Below, in pieces: positions 3,453 through 7,851 of a stretch of 11,065 nt of DNA. The stretch comes from Myxococcales bacterium (GTDB taxonomy: Bacteria > Myxococcota > Polyangia > HGW-17 > SLPX01). The stretch is from the NCBI GenBank assembly GCA_007131745.1, contig SLPX01000171.1, positions 1 through 11,065 of the forward strand, in the 5' to 3' direction. Position 1 is the first letter of the stretch; every line of letters begins with the position of its first letter. The position numbers were made by a program, and so were the translations under genes. Under the pieces are notes generated by a model. The model was not told where the DNA came from, ran no database searches, and saw nothing but the letters and a program-made list of their open reading frames with translations.

Positions 3453-4060
3453 AAAGAACAATAGATGCGCGCGGGCTTGCCTGCCCTCAACCCGTAGTGT
3501 TGACCCTGAAGGCGATAACCGAAAGCGATGAAGTAACGACCATAGTTGACAATGAGGCGGCCTTGGAAAACGTTTCCCGTCTGGCGAGATCAAAAGGTTG
3601 TTCGGTGGAAGTCTCTGGAAATGAGGGCAACATCCACATCACGATTAAGCGCGATGAAACATCCGGATTGGGAGATGACGAGGAAGCTGTCCCGTTTTGC
3701 CGATCCGCGACCCCCTCTCCGGCCGGGCCGCTCGTCTTGTTTGTTCCATCCGATTGTTTCGGTCGCGGACCCACGGAACTGGGAGAAAAACTCATGGGCG
3801 CGTTCTTCCATTCCGTTTCAGAAGTCGAGCCCAAACCGGATAGAATCATTTTCATGAACTCCGGGGTAAAACTGGTTGTCGAAGGCTCGCGCACGCTCCA
3901 AGACATTCGCTCCCTGGAAGCGCGAGGAATAGAGGTATATGCGTGCGGCACCTGTCTGGGCTACTTCGAGCTGACGGACAAGCTTGCTGTCGGGAGCGTG
4001 TCGAACATGTACGACATCGCAACCTCACTTCTCGAGGCCGAAAAAATTGTCTCGCTGTGA
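3449..4060 (+). CDS. yedF: Selenium metabolism-associated sulfurtransferase YedF (TusA-like + DsrE-like)
   Basis: This 203-residue two-domain protein has an N-terminal TusA/SirA fold (about 1-70) with the family CPxP motif (C12-P-Q-P15), where the cysteine would accept the sulfane or selenide atom. The C-terminal DsrE/DsrF-like domain (about 95-203) contains C103 and a C-G-T-C motif (166-169) as further candidate thiol sites. This architecture and length match the YedF family, which co-occurs with SelD and selenium-dependent enzymes. Start: GTG at 3449, six bases after a strong GGAGG (3438-3442). Its GTG overlaps the desulfurase stop as GTGA, so the two are probably translationally coupled. 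It would take S/Se from the upstream desulfurase and pass it on. Its last codons also hold the ribosome-binding site and apparent start of the next gene. Confidence 0.93.
   Translation: MKRTIDARGLACPQPVVLTLKAITESDEVTTIVDNEAALENVSRLARSKGCSVEVSGNEGNIHITIKRDETSGLGDDEEAVPFCRSATPSPAGPLVLFVPSDCFGRGPTELGEKLMGAFFHSVSEVEPKPDRIIFMNSGVKLVVEGSRTLQDIRSLEARGIEVYACGTCLGYFELTDKLAVGSVSNMYDIATSLLEAEKIVSL
4034..4037 (+). promoter_or_regulatory. Shine-Dalgarno inside yedF that decides a TTG start
   Basis: GAGG lies nine bases before TTG 4047 in the +1 frame relative to yedF. No ATG occurs in the DUF3343 frame between here and the conserved domain, and the only later candidates are GTG 4107/4110, which lack a clear Shine-Dalgarno and would trim the N-terminus. 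The downstream duplicate of the gene begins right at this GAGG and keeps it unchanged (5679-5682). This supports its use as the ribosome-binding site. Confidence 0.6.
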
Positions 4061-4313
4061 GTCACATCAATGTGAGCCGGGATGCGGATCAGCCTCGGGT
4101 TTCTGCGTGGTGCTTTTCCAATCGGTCCAGCACGCTCTCGCCGCGGAGAAACTTCTTGCTGCGGCCGATGTAGATTACAAGCTCATAGCGGTGCCCCGCC
4201 ACATCAGCTCCAACTGCGGATTTTGCATCAGGATCAAACAGACCGACCAAAAAACCGTCGCCGCCCTGCTCTCCAAACAAACGCTGGGAGTGGAAACCAT
4301 CCAACCCCTTTAG
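4047..4313 (+). CDS. DUF3343 putative Se/S carrier-like protein, copy 1
   Basis: This 88-residue protein of the DUF3343 (putative Se/S carrier-like) family belongs with YedF. The conserved core is recognisable: VLFQSVQHALAAEKLL (22-37), then VPRHISSNCGFC (49-60), whose Pro-Arg...Ser-Ser-x-Cys-Gly pattern (C57) is the family signature and the likely chalcogen-bearing site. I place the start at TTG 4047, 14 nt inside yedF. That gives a cysteine-rich N-terminal extension with C4, H7, C9, C13 and C20 before the domain, which is unusual for the family and could bind metal or relay sulfur/selenium. If translation instead starts at GTG 4107, the extension is absent. Compared with copy 2, ten codons differ, seven of them silently, including silent changes within the extension (P11, A16). 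The family call is firm; the start is moderately supported. Confidence 0.82.
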   Translation: MSRCESHQCEPGCGSASGFCVVLFQSVQHALAAEKLLAAADVDYKLIAVPRHISSNCGFCIRIKQTDQKTVAALLSKQTLGVETIQPL

Positions 4314-4426
4314 GCCGGCGGAGAATACAATATACAGTGCATCAGCTTCATGGTGGAAAGCCTAAACCGGAACTTTATGGGGACATGCCTTGTCATCGGA
4401 GAGTTCCATTGCAAGTAATTTTTATA

Positions 4427-4453
4427 CAATATAGGACTTGAAATCCTATATTG
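4427..4453. promoter_or_regulatory. 27-bp dyad operator-like site before ATPase 1
   Basis: Perfect 10-bp arms CAATATAGGA (4427-4436) and TCCTATATTG (4444-4453) enclose a 7-base centre. The site covers the -35 of the candidate ATPase promoter and ends 18 bases before the chosen start. A dyad of the same 27-bp span and half-site pattern precedes the second ATPase (6508-6534), with base pairs 4/24 and 9/19 changed on both sides together. It is probably a repressor or autoregulator site. It is unlikely to be a terminator, as there is no U-tract and it overlaps promoter elements. Confidence 0.7.
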
Positions 4454-4465
4454 CATAGATATTAT
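4438..4465 (+). promoter_or_regulatory. Candidate sigma70-type promoter of ATPase 1, possibly leaderless
   Basis: TTGAAA (4438-4443) and TATTAT (4460-4465) are separated by 16 bases. Transcription would begin near 4472, which is the ATG chosen for the ATPase. No Shine-Dalgarno is visible before that ATG, so a leaderless message is plausible. The -35 lies within the dyad. Confidence 0.5.
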
Positions 4466-4471
4466 GAACTT

Positions 4472-5635
4472 ATGTTCCGTCGAGATATAACAGACGAACT
4501 TCTCATTCTCTTGGATGAATATCCCGTAGTAACTGTTCTTGGTCCGCGTCAATCCGGCAAAACAACCTTGGTCCGCAATGTACTAACCGGCTATCAGTAC
4601 TCCAATCTTGAAATTCCGGAAGTTCGGCAACTGGCCCACAACGACCCCAAGGCTTACCTCGCATCGTTTGAGAAACACGTTATCATCGATGAAATACAGC
4701 GAGTCCCCGAACTCTTGAGTTATATCCAAGCGATTGTCGACGAACACGACATTACCGGGCATTTTGTACTTACAGGGTCTCATCAGCTCAGATTAAGTGA
4801 GGCGGTTTCACAATCCCTGGCAGGCAGAACAGCCATATTGAATCTCTTTCCGTTTTCCATTCAGGAATTGTCCAAACACGGCAAGGAATTCGATTCCTTC
4901 GAAACATACTGTTTCCGTGGATTCCTGCCTCGCATCTACGACAAATCCATCAGACCCGGGACGGCTCACTCCAACTACTATCGAACCTATATCGAGAGAG
5001 ATGTAAGAATGCTTATCAATCTCAAGGATCTCTCTCTTTTCGAAAGGTTTCTCAAACTCCTGGCAGGTCGCTCCGGTCAGGTGATGGAATACAGCTCACT
5101 TGCAAGAGACGTAGGGGTTTCCGCCAAGACCATACGTAGCTGGCTTTCCATTTTGGAAGCGTCATTTATTGTATTCAAGCTTCCTCCCTACTTTGAAAAC
5201 TTTGGGAAACGGATCATCAAGTCACCCAAATACTATTTCACGGACGTCGGCATGTTGTGTTTCCTGCTCGGAATCAGAAAAGCATCTCAGGTTTCAAGGG
5301 ACCCCCTTGTGGGACAGATTTTCGAGAATTTGGTGGTGATGGAGTGTGTCAAAGCCCGGAACAATCGAGGCGCCATGCCTGATCTTTATTTCTTCCGGGA
5401 TAACAATGGAAATGAAGTGGATATTTTACACCAGGATGGACGGAGTCTCACCGCGATTGAAGTCAAGTGTTCATCAACGTTTTCACATGGAGCCATAAAG
5501 GGGCTTTTGCGATTCAAGAAACGGATCCGGAAAATAAAACGCGCCCACCTGGTCTATAATGGCGACAACATCGACCTCAGCGACAACGTCGGCGCGGTTC
5601 ACTTCAAAAACGTCCACCGGCTATTCGGAGTATAG
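4472..5635 (+). CDS. COG1373 AAA+ ATPase with DUF4143 nuclease-like C-terminus (ATPase 1)
   Basis: This 387-residue AAA_14/DUF4143 protein has Walker A GPRQSGKTT (24-32), Walker B IIDE (71-74), sensor-1-like LTGSHQ (100-105), SLAGR with a likely arginine finger (R119) and the family motif YIERD (173-177). A winged-helix segment follows (SSLARDVGVSAKTIRSWLSILE, about 208-229). The C-terminal DUF4143 part has the PD-(D/E)xK-type pattern NEVD (D317)...IEVK (E330, K332). Length is normal and no key residue is missing. I chose ATG 4472; a TTG at 4451 in the same frame sits inside the dyad and upstream of the -10, so it could not lie on that transcript. The biological role of this family is poorly defined: it occurs as scattered, variable genes, and nuclease or self-regulating functions are inference. 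It lies between two copies of the DUF3343 gene and is unrelated to selenium transfer by sequence. Confidence 0.92.
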   Translation: MFRRDITDELLILLDEYPVVTVLGPRQSGKTTLVRNVLTGYQYSNLEIPEVRQLAHNDPKAYLASFEKHVIIDEIQRVPELLSYIQAIVDEHDITGHFVLTGSHQLRLSEAVSQSLAGRTAILNLFPFSIQELSKHGKEFDSFETYCFRGFLPRIYDKSIRPGTAHSNYYRTYIERDVRMLINLKDLSLFERFLKLLAGRSGQVMEYSSLARDVGVSAKTIRSWLSILEASFIVFKLPPYFENFGKRIIKSPKYYFTDVGMLCFLLGIRKASQVSRDPLVGQIFENLVVMECVKARNNRGAMPDLYFFRDNNGNEVDILHQDGRSLTAIEVKCSSTFSHGAIKGLLRFKKRIRKIKRAHLVYNGDNIDLSDNVGAVHFKNVHRLFGV

Positions 5636-5678
5636 AAGAGCGAGTGTGGGTCTCGGAAAACAGCTACGTGCGCTTGTC

Positions 5679-5682
5679 GAGG
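5679..5682 (+). promoter_or_regulatory. Shine-Dalgarno of DUF3343 copy 2
   Basis: GAGG sits nine bases before TTG 5692, identical in sequence and spacing to copy 1. Here no yedF gene overlaps it, so its preservation is best explained by use in translation. Confidence 0.6.
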
Positions 5683-5691
5683 CCGAAAAAA

Positions 5692-5958
5692 TTGTCTCGC
5701 TGTGATTCACATCAATGTGAGCCTGGATGCGGATCAGCATCGGGTTTCTGCGTGGTGCTTTTCCAATCGGTCCAGCACGCTCTCGCCGCGGAGAAACTTC
5801 TTGCTGCCGCCGATGTAGATTACAAGCTCATAGCGGTGCCCCGCCACATCAGCTCCAACTGCGGATTTTGCATCAGGATCAAACAGACCGACCAAAAAAC
5901 CGTTGATGCACTGCTCTCCAAACAAACGCTGGGAGTGGAAACCATCCAGACATTGTAG
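5692..5958 (+). CDS. DUF3343 putative Se/S carrier-like protein, copy 2
   Basis: This 88-residue paralog of the upstream DUF3343 protein differs at only three residues (E5D, A72D, P87T), while seven other codons change silently. The N-terminal Cys cluster (C4, C9, C13, C20) and the SSNCGFC motif (C57, C60) are intact. The frame is also open further upstream to an ATG at 5644, but that start lies in sequence not shared with copy 1 and has no evident Shine-Dalgarno. The matching TTG 5692 with GAGG is therefore preferred. No promoter was recognised directly upstream; expression may depend on read-through from ATPase 1. Because the copy lacks its desulfurase and YedF neighbours, it may be a spare carrier or a by-product of the rearrangement. 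The substitution pattern hints that it has been kept under selection. Confidence 0.8.
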   Translation: MSRCDSHQCEPGCGSASGFCVVLFQSVQHALAAEKLLAAADVDYKLIAVPRHISSNCGFCIRIKQTDQKTVDALLSKQTLGVETIQTL

Positions 5959-6023
5959 GCCGGCGGAGAGGATGATCCGCTGACTCGGATATTTTCTTCA
6001 CCCTGTCTAAATTCACTAGTCAT

Positions 6024-6079
6024 TGCAAAAGTGCGCCCACAAATTACAGAAAATGGTAATTTTTGATTGCACTTTTTGC
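6024..6079. repeat. Imperfect 55-bp inverted repeat
   Basis: Outer arms GCAAAAGTGC (6025-6034) and GCACTTTTTGC (6069-6079) pair with one bulge. Inner arms AAATTAC (6041-6047) and GTAATTT (6056-6062) pair perfectly around an 8-base loop, and six unpaired bases on each side separate them. It lies just before the decayed ATPase remnant. It does not share the half-sites of the two 27-bp dyads. It may be a remnant of a regulatory site or of an element end. Confidence 0.6.
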
Positions 6080-6105
6080 CTATCGACCTATACCCAACAC
6101 CATGA

Positions 6106-6285
6106 ATCGAAGTGAAATCCGGATGGGTGACCCAGGCGAAAAGCCTGAAAGTCTTTACCGACAAATACAATCCACCGTTCAGTGTTGTGTTCAGTGCGCG
6201 CAATTCGGGAATTGAGCGCCGCCGCCGCAAACATCATTATCCGCTTTACCTGGCAGCCAAGTTTCCGCTCCCAACCACCGGTTGA
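6106..6285 (+). pseudogene. Decayed C-terminal fragment of a third DUF4143 ATPase
   Basis: The frame reads IEVKSGWVTQAKSLKVF, then TDKYNPPFSVVFSARN and, near the end, HHYPLYLAAKFPL before TGA 6283. An (I/V)EVKSG motif followed by a KSL-x-VF...KY-P...FSxxN...PLYLA tail is the usual end of COG1373/DUF4143 proteins, and the first residues are the E-x-K nuclease motif. A TGA (6103-6105) lies immediately upstream in frame, and no Walker motifs or DUF4143 core remain, so more than 85% of a normal gene is gone. This tail type is absent from the two intact ATPases here, so the remnant is not a recent duplicate of either. Recognition is by pattern, without an alignment. Confidence 0.65.
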
Positions 6286-6307
6286 ACAGCCACCCGGTAG
6301 TCTTTCA

Positions 6308-6478
6308 ATGCAATCCTGGATAGGGCTGAGTCAAAAACGTGTTCGCATCTTTTCAAACCATGATGTCGGGCATGTTGTGATCAGGGGCATAGCATCTGTT
6401 CTGCATGGTGTTTCACGGGCGACTTTTGATCCGGAAATAATTGTTGATGCTACCCCGGAAAATGCTCAACATCTTTGA
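6308..6478 (+). pseudogene. Truncated, inactivated nucleotidyltransferase-like fragment (MNT/AbiEii type)
   Basis: From ATG 6308 the frame encodes 56 residues. The part HDVGHVVIRGIASVLHG followed by VSRATFDPEIIVDATPENAQ closely follows the N-terminal signature of MNT/AbiEii-like nucleotidyltransferases, which normally read GG-x-A...LHG...R-x-T-x-D-x-D...ENA. Two catalytic features are changed: the first glycine of the GG pair is Arg (AGG codon), and the DxD aspartate pair has become D-P-E. The protein then stops at TGA 6476, where family members continue well beyond 100 residues. It is therefore a dead fragment. Related nucleotidyltransferases are often toxin or antitoxin partners, so it may once have belonged to such a module. 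It sits between the third-ATPase remnant and the ATPase 2 promoter. The frame extends upstream of 6308 without recognisable similarity. Confidence 0.6.
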
Positions 6479-6506
6479 TCCGCATACTTTCACCTTTCCC
6501 TTGTAT

Positions 6507-6535
6507 GCAAAATAGAAGTTACACTTCTATTTTGC
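6507..6535. promoter_or_regulatory. Perfect 13-bp-arm dyad operator-like site before ATPase 2
   Basis: Arms GCAAAATAGAAGT (6507-6519) and ACTTCTATTTTGC (6523-6535) pair perfectly around TAC. Its central 27 bases (6508-6534) align without gaps to the dyad before ATPase 1: the CAA-x-ATAG-x-A half-site is shared and differences occur as matched pairs on both arms. It overlaps the candidate -35. It is not followed by a proper U-tract, and the gene it precedes starts 48 bases later, so an operator is more likely than a terminator. Confidence 0.72.
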
Positions 6536-6546
6536 TTTGGTAGAAT
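6518..6546 (+). promoter_or_regulatory. Candidate sigma70-type promoter of ATPase 2
   Basis: GTTACA (6518-6523) and TAGAAT (6541-6546) are separated by 17 bases. As at ATPase 1, the -35 lies in the dyad and the -10 just beyond it. Transcription would start near 6552-6553, coinciding with an ATG that opens an eight-codon frame (MTQTNSG, stop at 6573-6575) ending seven bases before the ATPase start. That mini-frame could be a leader peptide or chance. Confidence 0.5.
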
Positions 6547-6582: not shown

Positions 6583-7851
6583 ATGAAATATCAACAGCGA
6601 GACATAGAGCGTCTCATTTTAAAGGCCGCATCACAGTTCCCCGCGGTGATCCTGACAGGTGCGCGCCAAACAGGCAAGACCACTACGGTTAAACACCTTT
6701 TTGGTGACACTCACCGATACGTGTCGCTGGATGACCCACTGACCAAGACCCAAGCTATAGAAGACCCGTATCTCCTGCTCAAACGTTTTCCTCCGCCGAT
6801 CATTCTCGATGAGATCCAGTACGCGCCCCAATTGCTTCATCTCATCAAGATCCTGATAGACGAAAACCGCCACACATACGGCCGCTTCATAATTACGGGA
6901 TCCCAGATATTTCCCCTGATGCAAGGGGTAACCGAATCCCTGGCCGGACGGGCTGCGATTTTGGATTTCCCCCCCATGTCCATACGGGAGGTCTGCGGCC
7001 TGGGCACGGCTCTGAAAAACAGTCACTCTCTTCTGGAAGAATCCAACATGAAACCTCCATCTCATGAAAAAAGGATTCGATTCCTTTTTCGCGGGGGATA
7101 TCCCGAAGTGGCGCTGGCCGATTCGGCCCGGGGAAAGCAAGCCTCCGTCAACAGGGATCTGGACGTAAACATGTGGTTTTCTTCTTACGTGTCCACGTAC
7201 CTGGAGCGTGATGTGCGAAACATCCAAAACATAGGCAATTTGAGAGATTTTCAGCGTTTTCTCTTAGCGCTGGCAGTGCGAACCTCCTCCCCGGTGAATA
7301 TGAGCGATGTGGGGCGCGACATCGGTGTGACCTATCAAACTATCAAAACATGGATCTCCATCCTGGAAACCACCGGTCAAATTACGACTATAACTCCCTT
7401 TTACGTCAACGTGGGAAAGCGGCTCACCAAAAAAACCAAAGTATATTTCTCGGATACCGGGCTGCTTTCGTATTTACTTGGTATACAAAACGAGCCGGGA
7501 ATCAGCCAAGGAATGGCGGCCGGTCCTCTTTTTGAAACCGCTGTGCTTGCACAAATACGAGCGCTTCATTCCAACCGGGGAGAAAACAGGTCAATATCTT
7601 TTTGGAGAACCGCTGCAGGGCACGAGGTGGATTTTTTGATCCAAGAGGGCATCAATCTCACTCCTGTAGAAGCCAAAATCACGGCCACGCCGAAACCAAG
7701 GGACGCTGATTCCATCGAGCGTTTCATTCAGCTTCTGTCCGGGCGAAAAGACAGAATGTGGCAAATCGGAAAAGGTTTTTTGGTTTGTCTGTGCGACGGA
7801 CGGATCCCATTGACCCGCAATGTAGACGCCATCCCATTCGGCTCGTTCTGA
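6583..7851 (+). CDS. COG1373 AAA+ ATPase with DUF4143 nuclease-like C-terminus (ATPase 2)
   Basis: This 422-residue protein has Walker A GARQTGKTT (26-34), Walker B IILDE (73-77), IITGSQ (103-108), SLAGR (R123) and YLERD (206-210). A winged-helix segment follows (MSDVGRDIGVTYQTIKTWIS, 240-259). The DUF4143 domain ends with the nuclease-like pattern HEVD (D350)...VEAK (E363, K365). It has the same architecture as ATPase 1 but is clearly divergent, with an insertion around 140-165 and different recognition-helix residues (TYQTIKTW against SAKTIRSW), so the two are not a recent duplication. Start ATG 6583 has only a weak GGA upstream; an alternative ATG at 6576 is in another frame. It appears intact. 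No partner gene is adjacent: the next gene, 212 bases downstream, has its own strong ribosome-binding site. The role is unknown; autoregulation through the upstream dyad is inferred. Confidence 0.92.
   Translation: MKYQQRDIERLILKAASQFPAVILTGARQTGKTTTVKHLFGDTHRYVSLDDPLTKTQAIEDPYLLLKRFPPPIILDEIQYAPQLLHLIKILIDENRHTYGRFIITGSQIFPLMQGVTESLAGRAAILDFPPMSIREVCGLGTALKNSHSLLEESNMKPPSHEKRIRFLFRGGYPEVALADSARGKQASVNRDLDVNMWFSSYVSTYLERDVRNIQNIGNLRDFQRFLLALAVRTSSPVNMSDVGRDIGVTYQTIKTWISILETTGQITTITPFYVNVGKRLTKKTKVYFSDTGLLSYLLGIQNEPGISQGMAAGPLFETAVLAQIRALHSNRGENRSISFWRTAAGHEVDFLIQEGINLTPVEAKITATPKPRDADSIERFIQLLSGRKDRMWQIGKGFLVCLCDGRIPLTRNVDAIPFGSF

Follow-up and report, generated by a model that had tools for sequence, protein, structure and literature searches.

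The stretch of DNA analysed here (the window) comprises 11,065 nt of a Myxococcales bacterium genome (GenBank assembly GCA_007131745.1, contig SLPX01000171.1) and carries two genes for ATPases with AAA_14 and DUF4143 domains, hereafter ATPase 1 and ATPase 2. Each gene is preceded by a palindrome, proposed below to be an operator, that overlaps its candidate promoter. The elements lie as follows, with half-site bases numbered outward from the dyad centre (k1, k2 and so on).

4423 to 4457, + strand: putative operator 1, 35-bp palindrome, 15 of 17 pairs, centre G4440, outward half-site AAATCCTATATTGCATA (dyad scan)
4438 to 4443, + strand: candidate -35 hexamer TTGAAA at the dyad centre (sequence; centre conserved in relatives)
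4460 to 4465, + strand: candidate -10 hexamer TATTAT, 16-bp spacer, 6 nt before ATG 4472, leaderless type (sequence; family pattern)
4472 to 5635, + strand: ATPase 1, AAA_14 and DUF4143, ATG start by homology (the open reading frame list begins at TTG 4451)
6504 to 6538, + strand: putative operator 2, 35-bp palindrome, 14 of 17 pairs, centre A6521 (dyad scan)
6519 to 6524, + strand: -35-like hexamer TTACAC at the dyad centre (sequence)
6541 to 6546, + strand: candidate -10 hexamer TAGAAT, 16-bp spacer (sequence)
6583 to 7851, + strand: ATPase 2, AAA_14 and DUF4143 (profiles)

The central 27 bp of the palindromes, CAATATAGGACTTGAAATCCTATATTG at 4427-4453 and CAAAATAGAAGTTACACTTCTATTTTG at 6508-6534, are paired at 12 of 13 positions each and are the two top 27-bp dyads of the window (third best, 10 of 13), as well as its strongest palindromes of 25-29 bp; symmetry reaches about 35 bp, the span listed above. 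By reading of the sequence, the -35-like hexamers straddle the dyad centres, and TATTAT and TAGAAT each begin 20 bp past their own centre (4440 and 6521). A sequence-only reading of this DNA had described the shared half-site CAA-x-ATAG-x-A, symmetrical differences between the arms at paired positions 4/24 and 9/19, and a candidate -35 under each dyad with the -10 just beyond. All of this holds, with further differences found near the centre. The two genes, which it called divergent, are so in sequence (36% identity) but not in orientation, being on the same strand.

AAA_14 (PF13173) and DUF4143 (PF13635) match the two window ATPases at 95.8/167.6 and 92.7/140.7 bits, against curated cut-offs of 27 and 28.1. 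Judged from fold and Walker residues only, the protein resembles STAND-type AAA+ ATPases, its P-loop ATPase domain preceding a winged helix folded as in 2qen/2fna; the C-terminal domain, a candidate nuclease, has the fold and the D-x(n)-E-x-K residues of the PD-(D/E)XK superfamily. Searches of NCBIfam and PHROGs yielded nothing useful for the ATPases, and a sequence search for solved structures returned one weak match, judged to be a different kind of protein. The TTG 4451 start lies inside the dyad, and the equivalent of ATG 4472 is the sole start codon of the examined interval in 61 of 84 related genes. Residue numbers of ATPase 1 nevertheless count from TTG 4451.

Palindromes and promoters upstream of related genes

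Eighty loci with relatives of ATPase 1 (50-68% identity, many phyla) were taken from genome contigs, a DUF4143 search of 24 genomes holding those loci added 80 further loci, and more relatives came from other searches. Of the 214 genes collected, 208 with 269 nt upstream entered the dyad-enrichment count. Palindromes of the form TATGCAAATCAGGAGTT[G]AACTCCTGATTTGCATA were listed upstream of many ATPase-1 relatives (rows L015 and L060 disregarded), often with their end 14-16 nt ahead of the ATG. A dyad score of at least 9 was reached upstream of 115 of 208 ATPase genes, compared with 13 of 127 other genes from those loci and with 6.8 of 208 in shuffled sequence, so that the dyads tied by the sequence-only reading to homologous ATPases are indeed enriched there over unrelated genes. 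When the register was fixed, with the centre at -33 from the ATG and no choice per locus, at least 11 of 17 pairs were found in 26 of 83 loci, and in 0-4 at the five next-best offsets. The palindrome thus conserved lies over the gene's own promoter, as in an autoregulator. Even a truncated ATPase of 112 aa (L191:2395-2786; G007:C71) retains the operator and a leaderless-type promoter. Upstream of single genes at L004 and L078, two operator-like palindromes were observed 86 and 61 bp apart; these pairs are possibly cooperative double operators.

Promoter layout was assessed with the register set only by a TTGAA/TTTAA centre and the -10. This combination was present at 54 of 82 loci (3.6 in mononucleotide shuffles), with the -10 offset from the centre by +21 (40 loci), +20 (13) or +22 (1); fewer than 7 of 14 pairs were formed at the chosen register in 16 of these 54 loci, mostly loci with the -35 in the right arm. 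In the ATPase-1 type, the -35 hexamer forms the dyad centre, and the -10 lies 16-17 bp downstream. In Latescibacterota-type loci, the gene start is more distant and the -35 is located within the right arm, yet dyad and promoter overlap here as well. Among 181 pooled genes, the 97 with a good -10 have it mainly at +19 to +21 or at +25 to +27 relative to the centre. In 38 of these 97, there are 5-9 nt between the end of the -10 and the predicted ATG, which points to a leaderless message whose transcript the dyad would precede.

Two core patterns modelled on these loci were also searched in the 24 genomes, which were selected for carrying such ATPases. Pattern AANNNRGASTTGAAVTCYNNNTT gave 6 matches, all upstream of such ATPases (five listed genes and one truncated ATPase), and pattern TCAAGTTNAACTTGAAA gave 4, all at listed ATPases; the reversed controls gave 2 matches each. 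The two patterns are strict, and the majority of operators in these genomes escape them. Matches at ATPases are expected because the patterns were built on these loci, and what is informative is the absence of sites elsewhere: neither pattern matched away from ATPases in the 24 genomes (10 of 10 matches beside them). The dyads are thus not equally frequent near unrelated genes, within this ATPase-chosen set.

Coupling between operator bases and protein residues

The following segments of the proteins bear on how the palindromes may be read.

5120 to 5143, + strand: SAKTIRSW, residues 224-231, start of the predicted recognition helix; 224-226 covary with k5-k7 (covariation, model)
5402 to 5407, + strand: N318-N319, predicted turn of the PD-(D/E)XK beta-hairpin; covary with k13-k16 (covariation, model)
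5420 to 5467, + strand: D324, E337 and K339, catalytic-type residues of the PD-(D/E)XK fold, 98-100% conserved in 435 genes (alignment)
7330 to 7353, + strand: TYQTIKTW, equivalent of the recognition helix in ATPase 2 (alignment)

Covariation was computed on odd-centred dyads only, with a run of at least 9 or at least 13 of 17 pairs, giving 103 discovery genes. When alignment columns were scanned blind against half-site positions (92 genes, 90% identity), the top combinations were 319-k16, 226-k6 and 226-k5; at 60% identity, residue 252 with k15 ranks third. In the structure model, residue 226 lies at the N-terminus of the winged helix-turn-helix helix 225-237, and 318-319 lie in the turn joining strands 312-316 and 322-329. 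The associations in the 103 genes are as follows.

Residue 226 and k5k6: K with CC, 28/32; P with TT, 13/13; M with CT, 5/5; H with TC, 3/3
Residue 226 and k5k6: N with GC, 9/15; T with TG or TT, 17/21
Residue 319 and k16: N with T, 26/29; D with G, 12/12; K/H/R with C, 21/25
Residue 319 and k16: A/T/S/G with A, 16/25; Q with T, 7/10

Side chains and bases are commonly matched as N with A, K/R/H with G and D with C, and residue 319 fits this chemistry on the opposite strand (N-A 26/29, D-C 12/12, K/H/R-G 21/25). ATPase 1 of the window follows both rules, with K226 and CC, and N319 and T. Position k16 carries 0.09 bit yet is paired in 85%, a figure inflated by the selection of dyads for overall pairing.

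In the pooled scan (162 genes at 80% representatives, 5,824 cells), the top six combinations were 319-k16, 226-k6, 226-k5, 224-k5, 225-k7 and 318-k15, and at 60% (99 genes) the top five were 319-k16, 226-k5, 226-k6, 225-k7 and 318-k15. Leave-one-out prediction with the same 99 genes and 350 columns placed residue 226 first for k5k6 (57/99; next 36, median 26) and 319 first for k16 (67/99; next 49, median 33), with 225 narrowly best for k7 (57/99; next 52). The inner coupling is seen between distant proteins as well: among pairs of 25-40% identity, k5k6 is the same in 510 of 1058 pairs sharing residue 226 and in 593 of 7734 pairs differing there. Swapped, non-cognate residue-base combinations are nearly flat at 25-60% identity.

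The rules were then fixed in writing before new loci were collected, and were left unchanged between two held-out sets, the second of which was collected after a weak k16 result in the first. Held-out set 1 had 94 new genes, 51 with a confident dyad of either parity and 31 kept; set 2 had 135 ATPase-1-like genes, of which 8 were dropped (at least 90% identical to earlier ones) and 125 had usable upstreams, 84 with a dyad, 74 of them odd and 58 left after de-duplication. For k5k6, the predictions were correct in 14 of 21 genes of set 1 (expected 4.6) and 29 of 42 of set 2 (expected 10.0), and k16 was correct in 32 of 54 of set 2 (expected 16.9), each equalled in 0 of 20,000 permutations. At 60% representatives, set 2 gave 18/29 for k16 (1/20,000) and 18/26 for k5k6 (0/20,000). 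For held-out proteins below 60% identity to all discovery proteins, k5k6 was predicted in 22/33 (0/20,000), below 55% in 12/19 (p 5e-5) and below 50% in 5/9 (p 0.035). Three of five named plasmid homologs have family-like dyads, with k16 right in 3/3 and k5k6 in 1/2 (no rule applied to the third).

The sequence-only reading had proposed that the arms covary with the recognition helix, and the segment it named (224-226) is the one recovered, with held-out genes in agreement. Of its paired positions, 9/19 corresponds to k5, which belongs to the pair of bases coupled most closely to the helix; 4/24 corresponds to k10, for which no strong coupling was found. The longer site, and an apparent second reading segment at 318-319 in the nuclease-fold domain, go beyond it.

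It is proposed that each AAA_14/DUF4143 ATPase, probably as a dimer, binds a private palindromic operator overlapping the -35 of its own promoter and, when bound, would limit its own transcription. Each protomer would read one half-site in two blocks, with the N-terminus of the winged-helix recognition helix (224-226) reading the inner k5-k7 and the beta-hairpin turn 318-319 of the C-terminal PD-(D/E)XK-fold domain reading the outer k15-k16. The centre, with the -35, and the AT-rich k9-k12 would stay comparatively constant, and the specificity bases would change along with the protein, so that paralogs in one genome could carry different switches. The basis is computed: conservation, symmetry, promoter geometry, coupling that predicts new genes, and no core-pattern sites away from ATPases in the 24 genomes. 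A probability of about 0.73 is assigned to the whole explanation, binding through two modules together with self-repression. Covariation makes it very probable that the encoded ATPase binds the adjacent operator, and overlap with the -35 makes it probable that binding means repression. Dimerisation, and release dependent on ATP or on a trigger, are parts of the scheme that we infer.

Several results weigh against this proposal. A dyad score of at least 9 is absent from 93 of the 208 ATPase upstreams, and a good -10 was found in just 97 of the 181 pooled genes. The coupling ranking dissolves in the discovery scan at 45% representatives (19 genes), and residue 318 falls outside the five best leave-one-out columns for k15. 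ATPase 2 of the window breaks the k16 rule (A319 predicts A and T is present), with no rule for its Q226. In the more distant relatives of held-out set 1, k16 was predicted in 14 of 31 genes (expected 9.1; 813/20,000 permutations, p 0.04), and relative to the discovery set it fell to 18/40 below 60% identity (p 0.03), 11/24 below 55% (p 0.10) and 4/11 below 50% (p 0.50). The inner rule thus generalises, and the outer rule holds mainly among closer ATPase-1 relatives; as a guess, the outer block may be shifted by one base in distant groups. Poor rules in set 2 were N226 (2/8), K226 (5/9), Q319 (2/8), S319 (4/10), G319 (1/4), T319 (0/2) and R319 (0/1), and the permutations treat genes as independent. 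Among the plasmid homologs, the one of Ruminococcus albus has no upstream dyad, and Thermus TT_P0211 has only a short, GC-rich dyad, above the run threshold but fitting neither rule. In the available part of one report, TT_P0211 RNA of T. thermophilus HB27 is 6.6-fold higher with plasmid than without, in an Ago-bearing strain (PMC4406477). Some family members may thus respond to conditions, though without a family-like dyad in this case, and because the dyad there is unlike that of the family this expression change is not used as support.

Alternative explanations and mobility

The alternative that survives best, improbable as it seems, is that the ATPase binds the palindrome for cleavage, strand transfer or integration of its gene, as at a homing site or transposon end, rather than for regulation. 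It would suit the intact nuclease active-site residues (98-100%), the modelled position of turn 318-319 directly before the strand bearing E322/D324, and the patchy occurrence of the gene (3/200 genomes at E 1e-90; 96/387, 46/369 and 51/296 at 1e-70). It would also suit the genomic context, since ATPase 1 of the window is flanked by direct repeats:

4028 to 4324, + strand: upstream copy of a 297-bp direct repeat, holding the end of a TusA/DsrE-domain gene and a Se_S_carrier gene
5673 to 5969, + strand: downstream copy, 95% identical, on the other side of ATPase 1

The window looks as if an insertion had duplicated a flank. Direct repeats of 82-495 bp within 1.2 kb flank 8 of 69 ATPase loci (the window, L001, L006, L016, L027, L039, L052 and L072; with 2-kb flanks also L064) compared with 0 of 72 control genes; L015, whose two flanks overlapped as extracted, was left out. 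At L072 (4130-4260), a second operator copy (33 of 35 bases) and a short ATPase remnant lie downstream of the operator of the intact gene, at a distance of about 2.2 kb. Together, the flanking repeats and this remnant suggest that operator plus gene may form a mobile unit.

However, a transposon end or homing site is expected to show a second copy at the far end or vacant sites, and neither was found, L072 with its remnant being the one exception. The second-best match to a gene's own operator averages 19.9/35 over 54 loci, no better than the 19.5/35 of shuffled operators; the clear exceptions are the other ATPase of the window, the L072 remnant and the two double operators. Vacant sites sought in the 24 genomes with the two strict patterns were not seen, and cleavage would not require the conserved promoter geometry.

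Two further observations concern the surroundings of such genes. On the Emticicia oligotrophica plasmid pEMTOL02 (L525), a lone family ATPase lies between the L-ribulose-5-phosphate 4-epimerase gene and araA, as would an inserted single gene. A third inverted repeat of the window (6027-6076; 21-nt arms, 81%, TTGCA/TGCA ends), between the Se_S_carrier copy and ATPase 2, is possibly the relic operator of a lost gene.

It is very unlikely that the dyads act as RNA hairpins, either as the terminator of the upstream gene or as a leader element of the ATPase mRNA. Compensating changes in the arms also mark RNA helices, and GT exceeded AC mismatches (42 versus 25) in the 38 in-register layout loci; no GT excess was seen in all 54 loci (66 GT, 84 AC) or in the 208 pooled genes (99 GT, 95 AC). 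Taken alone, these counts are compatible with RNA pairing, a further point against the operator proposal, and since they do not decide, the argument for a DNA site is built on promoter overlap, leaderless layout and coupling to the protein. No T-run follows the window dyads, no Rfam family reached its gathering score in 20 sources, and the dyad precedes the presumed transcript in the leaderless genes described above. A hairpin is disfavoured by this geometry, by the Rfam result and by bases that covary with protein residues.

The sequence-only reading had left open whether each ATPase or a common regulator binds the dyads. A separate regulator encoded elsewhere could account for the half-site shared by both window dyads, but is given very little credence because the specificity bases follow the neighbouring ATPase's residues by rules that predict held-out genes, and non-cognate combinations show little association; the ATPase itself is favoured. 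A viral origin was set aside, with only 10 relatives found in IMG/VR by the two patterns used.

Relation to known systems

Profiles of PADLOC assign both window ATPases to PDC-S01, a single-gene candidate for phage defence, with E-values of 1.7e-99 and 5.8e-92; phage protection is thus a candidate role. The available part of one survey counts 39,480 PDC-S01 systems (Bacteria 29,494, Archaea 9,986) and reports the fusion of an ATPase with a member of the PD-(D/E)XK superfamily, without mentioning an operator or autoregulation there (PMC12988326). In a rumen survey, as far as its available text goes, PDC-S01 was the most frequent single locus (PMC13356809). More widely, no description of an operator of this kind was found in the open-access full-text literature (subscription papers and preprints lay outside the search).

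The archaeal STAND-type AAA+ ATPases PABY2304 (2qen) and SSO1545 (2fna), for which we know of no operator, differ from the window protein by lacking its C-terminal PD-(D/E)XK-fold domain. The window family also differs from the PD-(D/E)XK defence nucleases Can2, Card1 and McrBC in that the turn of the fold appears to read operator bases, a role we do not know for those nucleases. As in classical autorepressors, the palindrome is centred on the gene's own -35 and the recognition helix of the winged helix-turn-helix is tied to the inner half-site; unlike them, the protein combines an ATPase with a nuclease fold that appears to supply a second reading segment, and its operators diversify gene by gene. 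In a broader and tentative picture, more likely wrong than right, DUF4143 ATPase-nucleases would be self-labelled immune-type switches, with the nuclease parked on its own promoter, expression low and active sites occupied, until it is freed by a trigger or by its ATP state; co-diversified operators would insulate the copies, and the mobile unit would carry its own control.

This very abundant ATPase family (PDC-S01) is, to our knowledge, uncharacterised. What is gained is a putative DNA ligand, two candidate segments for specificity and a code from residue to base that is predictive in part, so that function can be tested directly by means of short oligonucleotides and single substitutions. 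Read from sequence, the element is a widespread, gene-private putative operator that co-diversifies with two short segments of the adjacent protein. On this evidence, a hairpin of the PD-(D/E)XK fold may act in reading an operator, and private operators may be what lets paralogs coexist. Altogether, the candidate defence proteins of this abundant, little-studied family appear to be under their own control.

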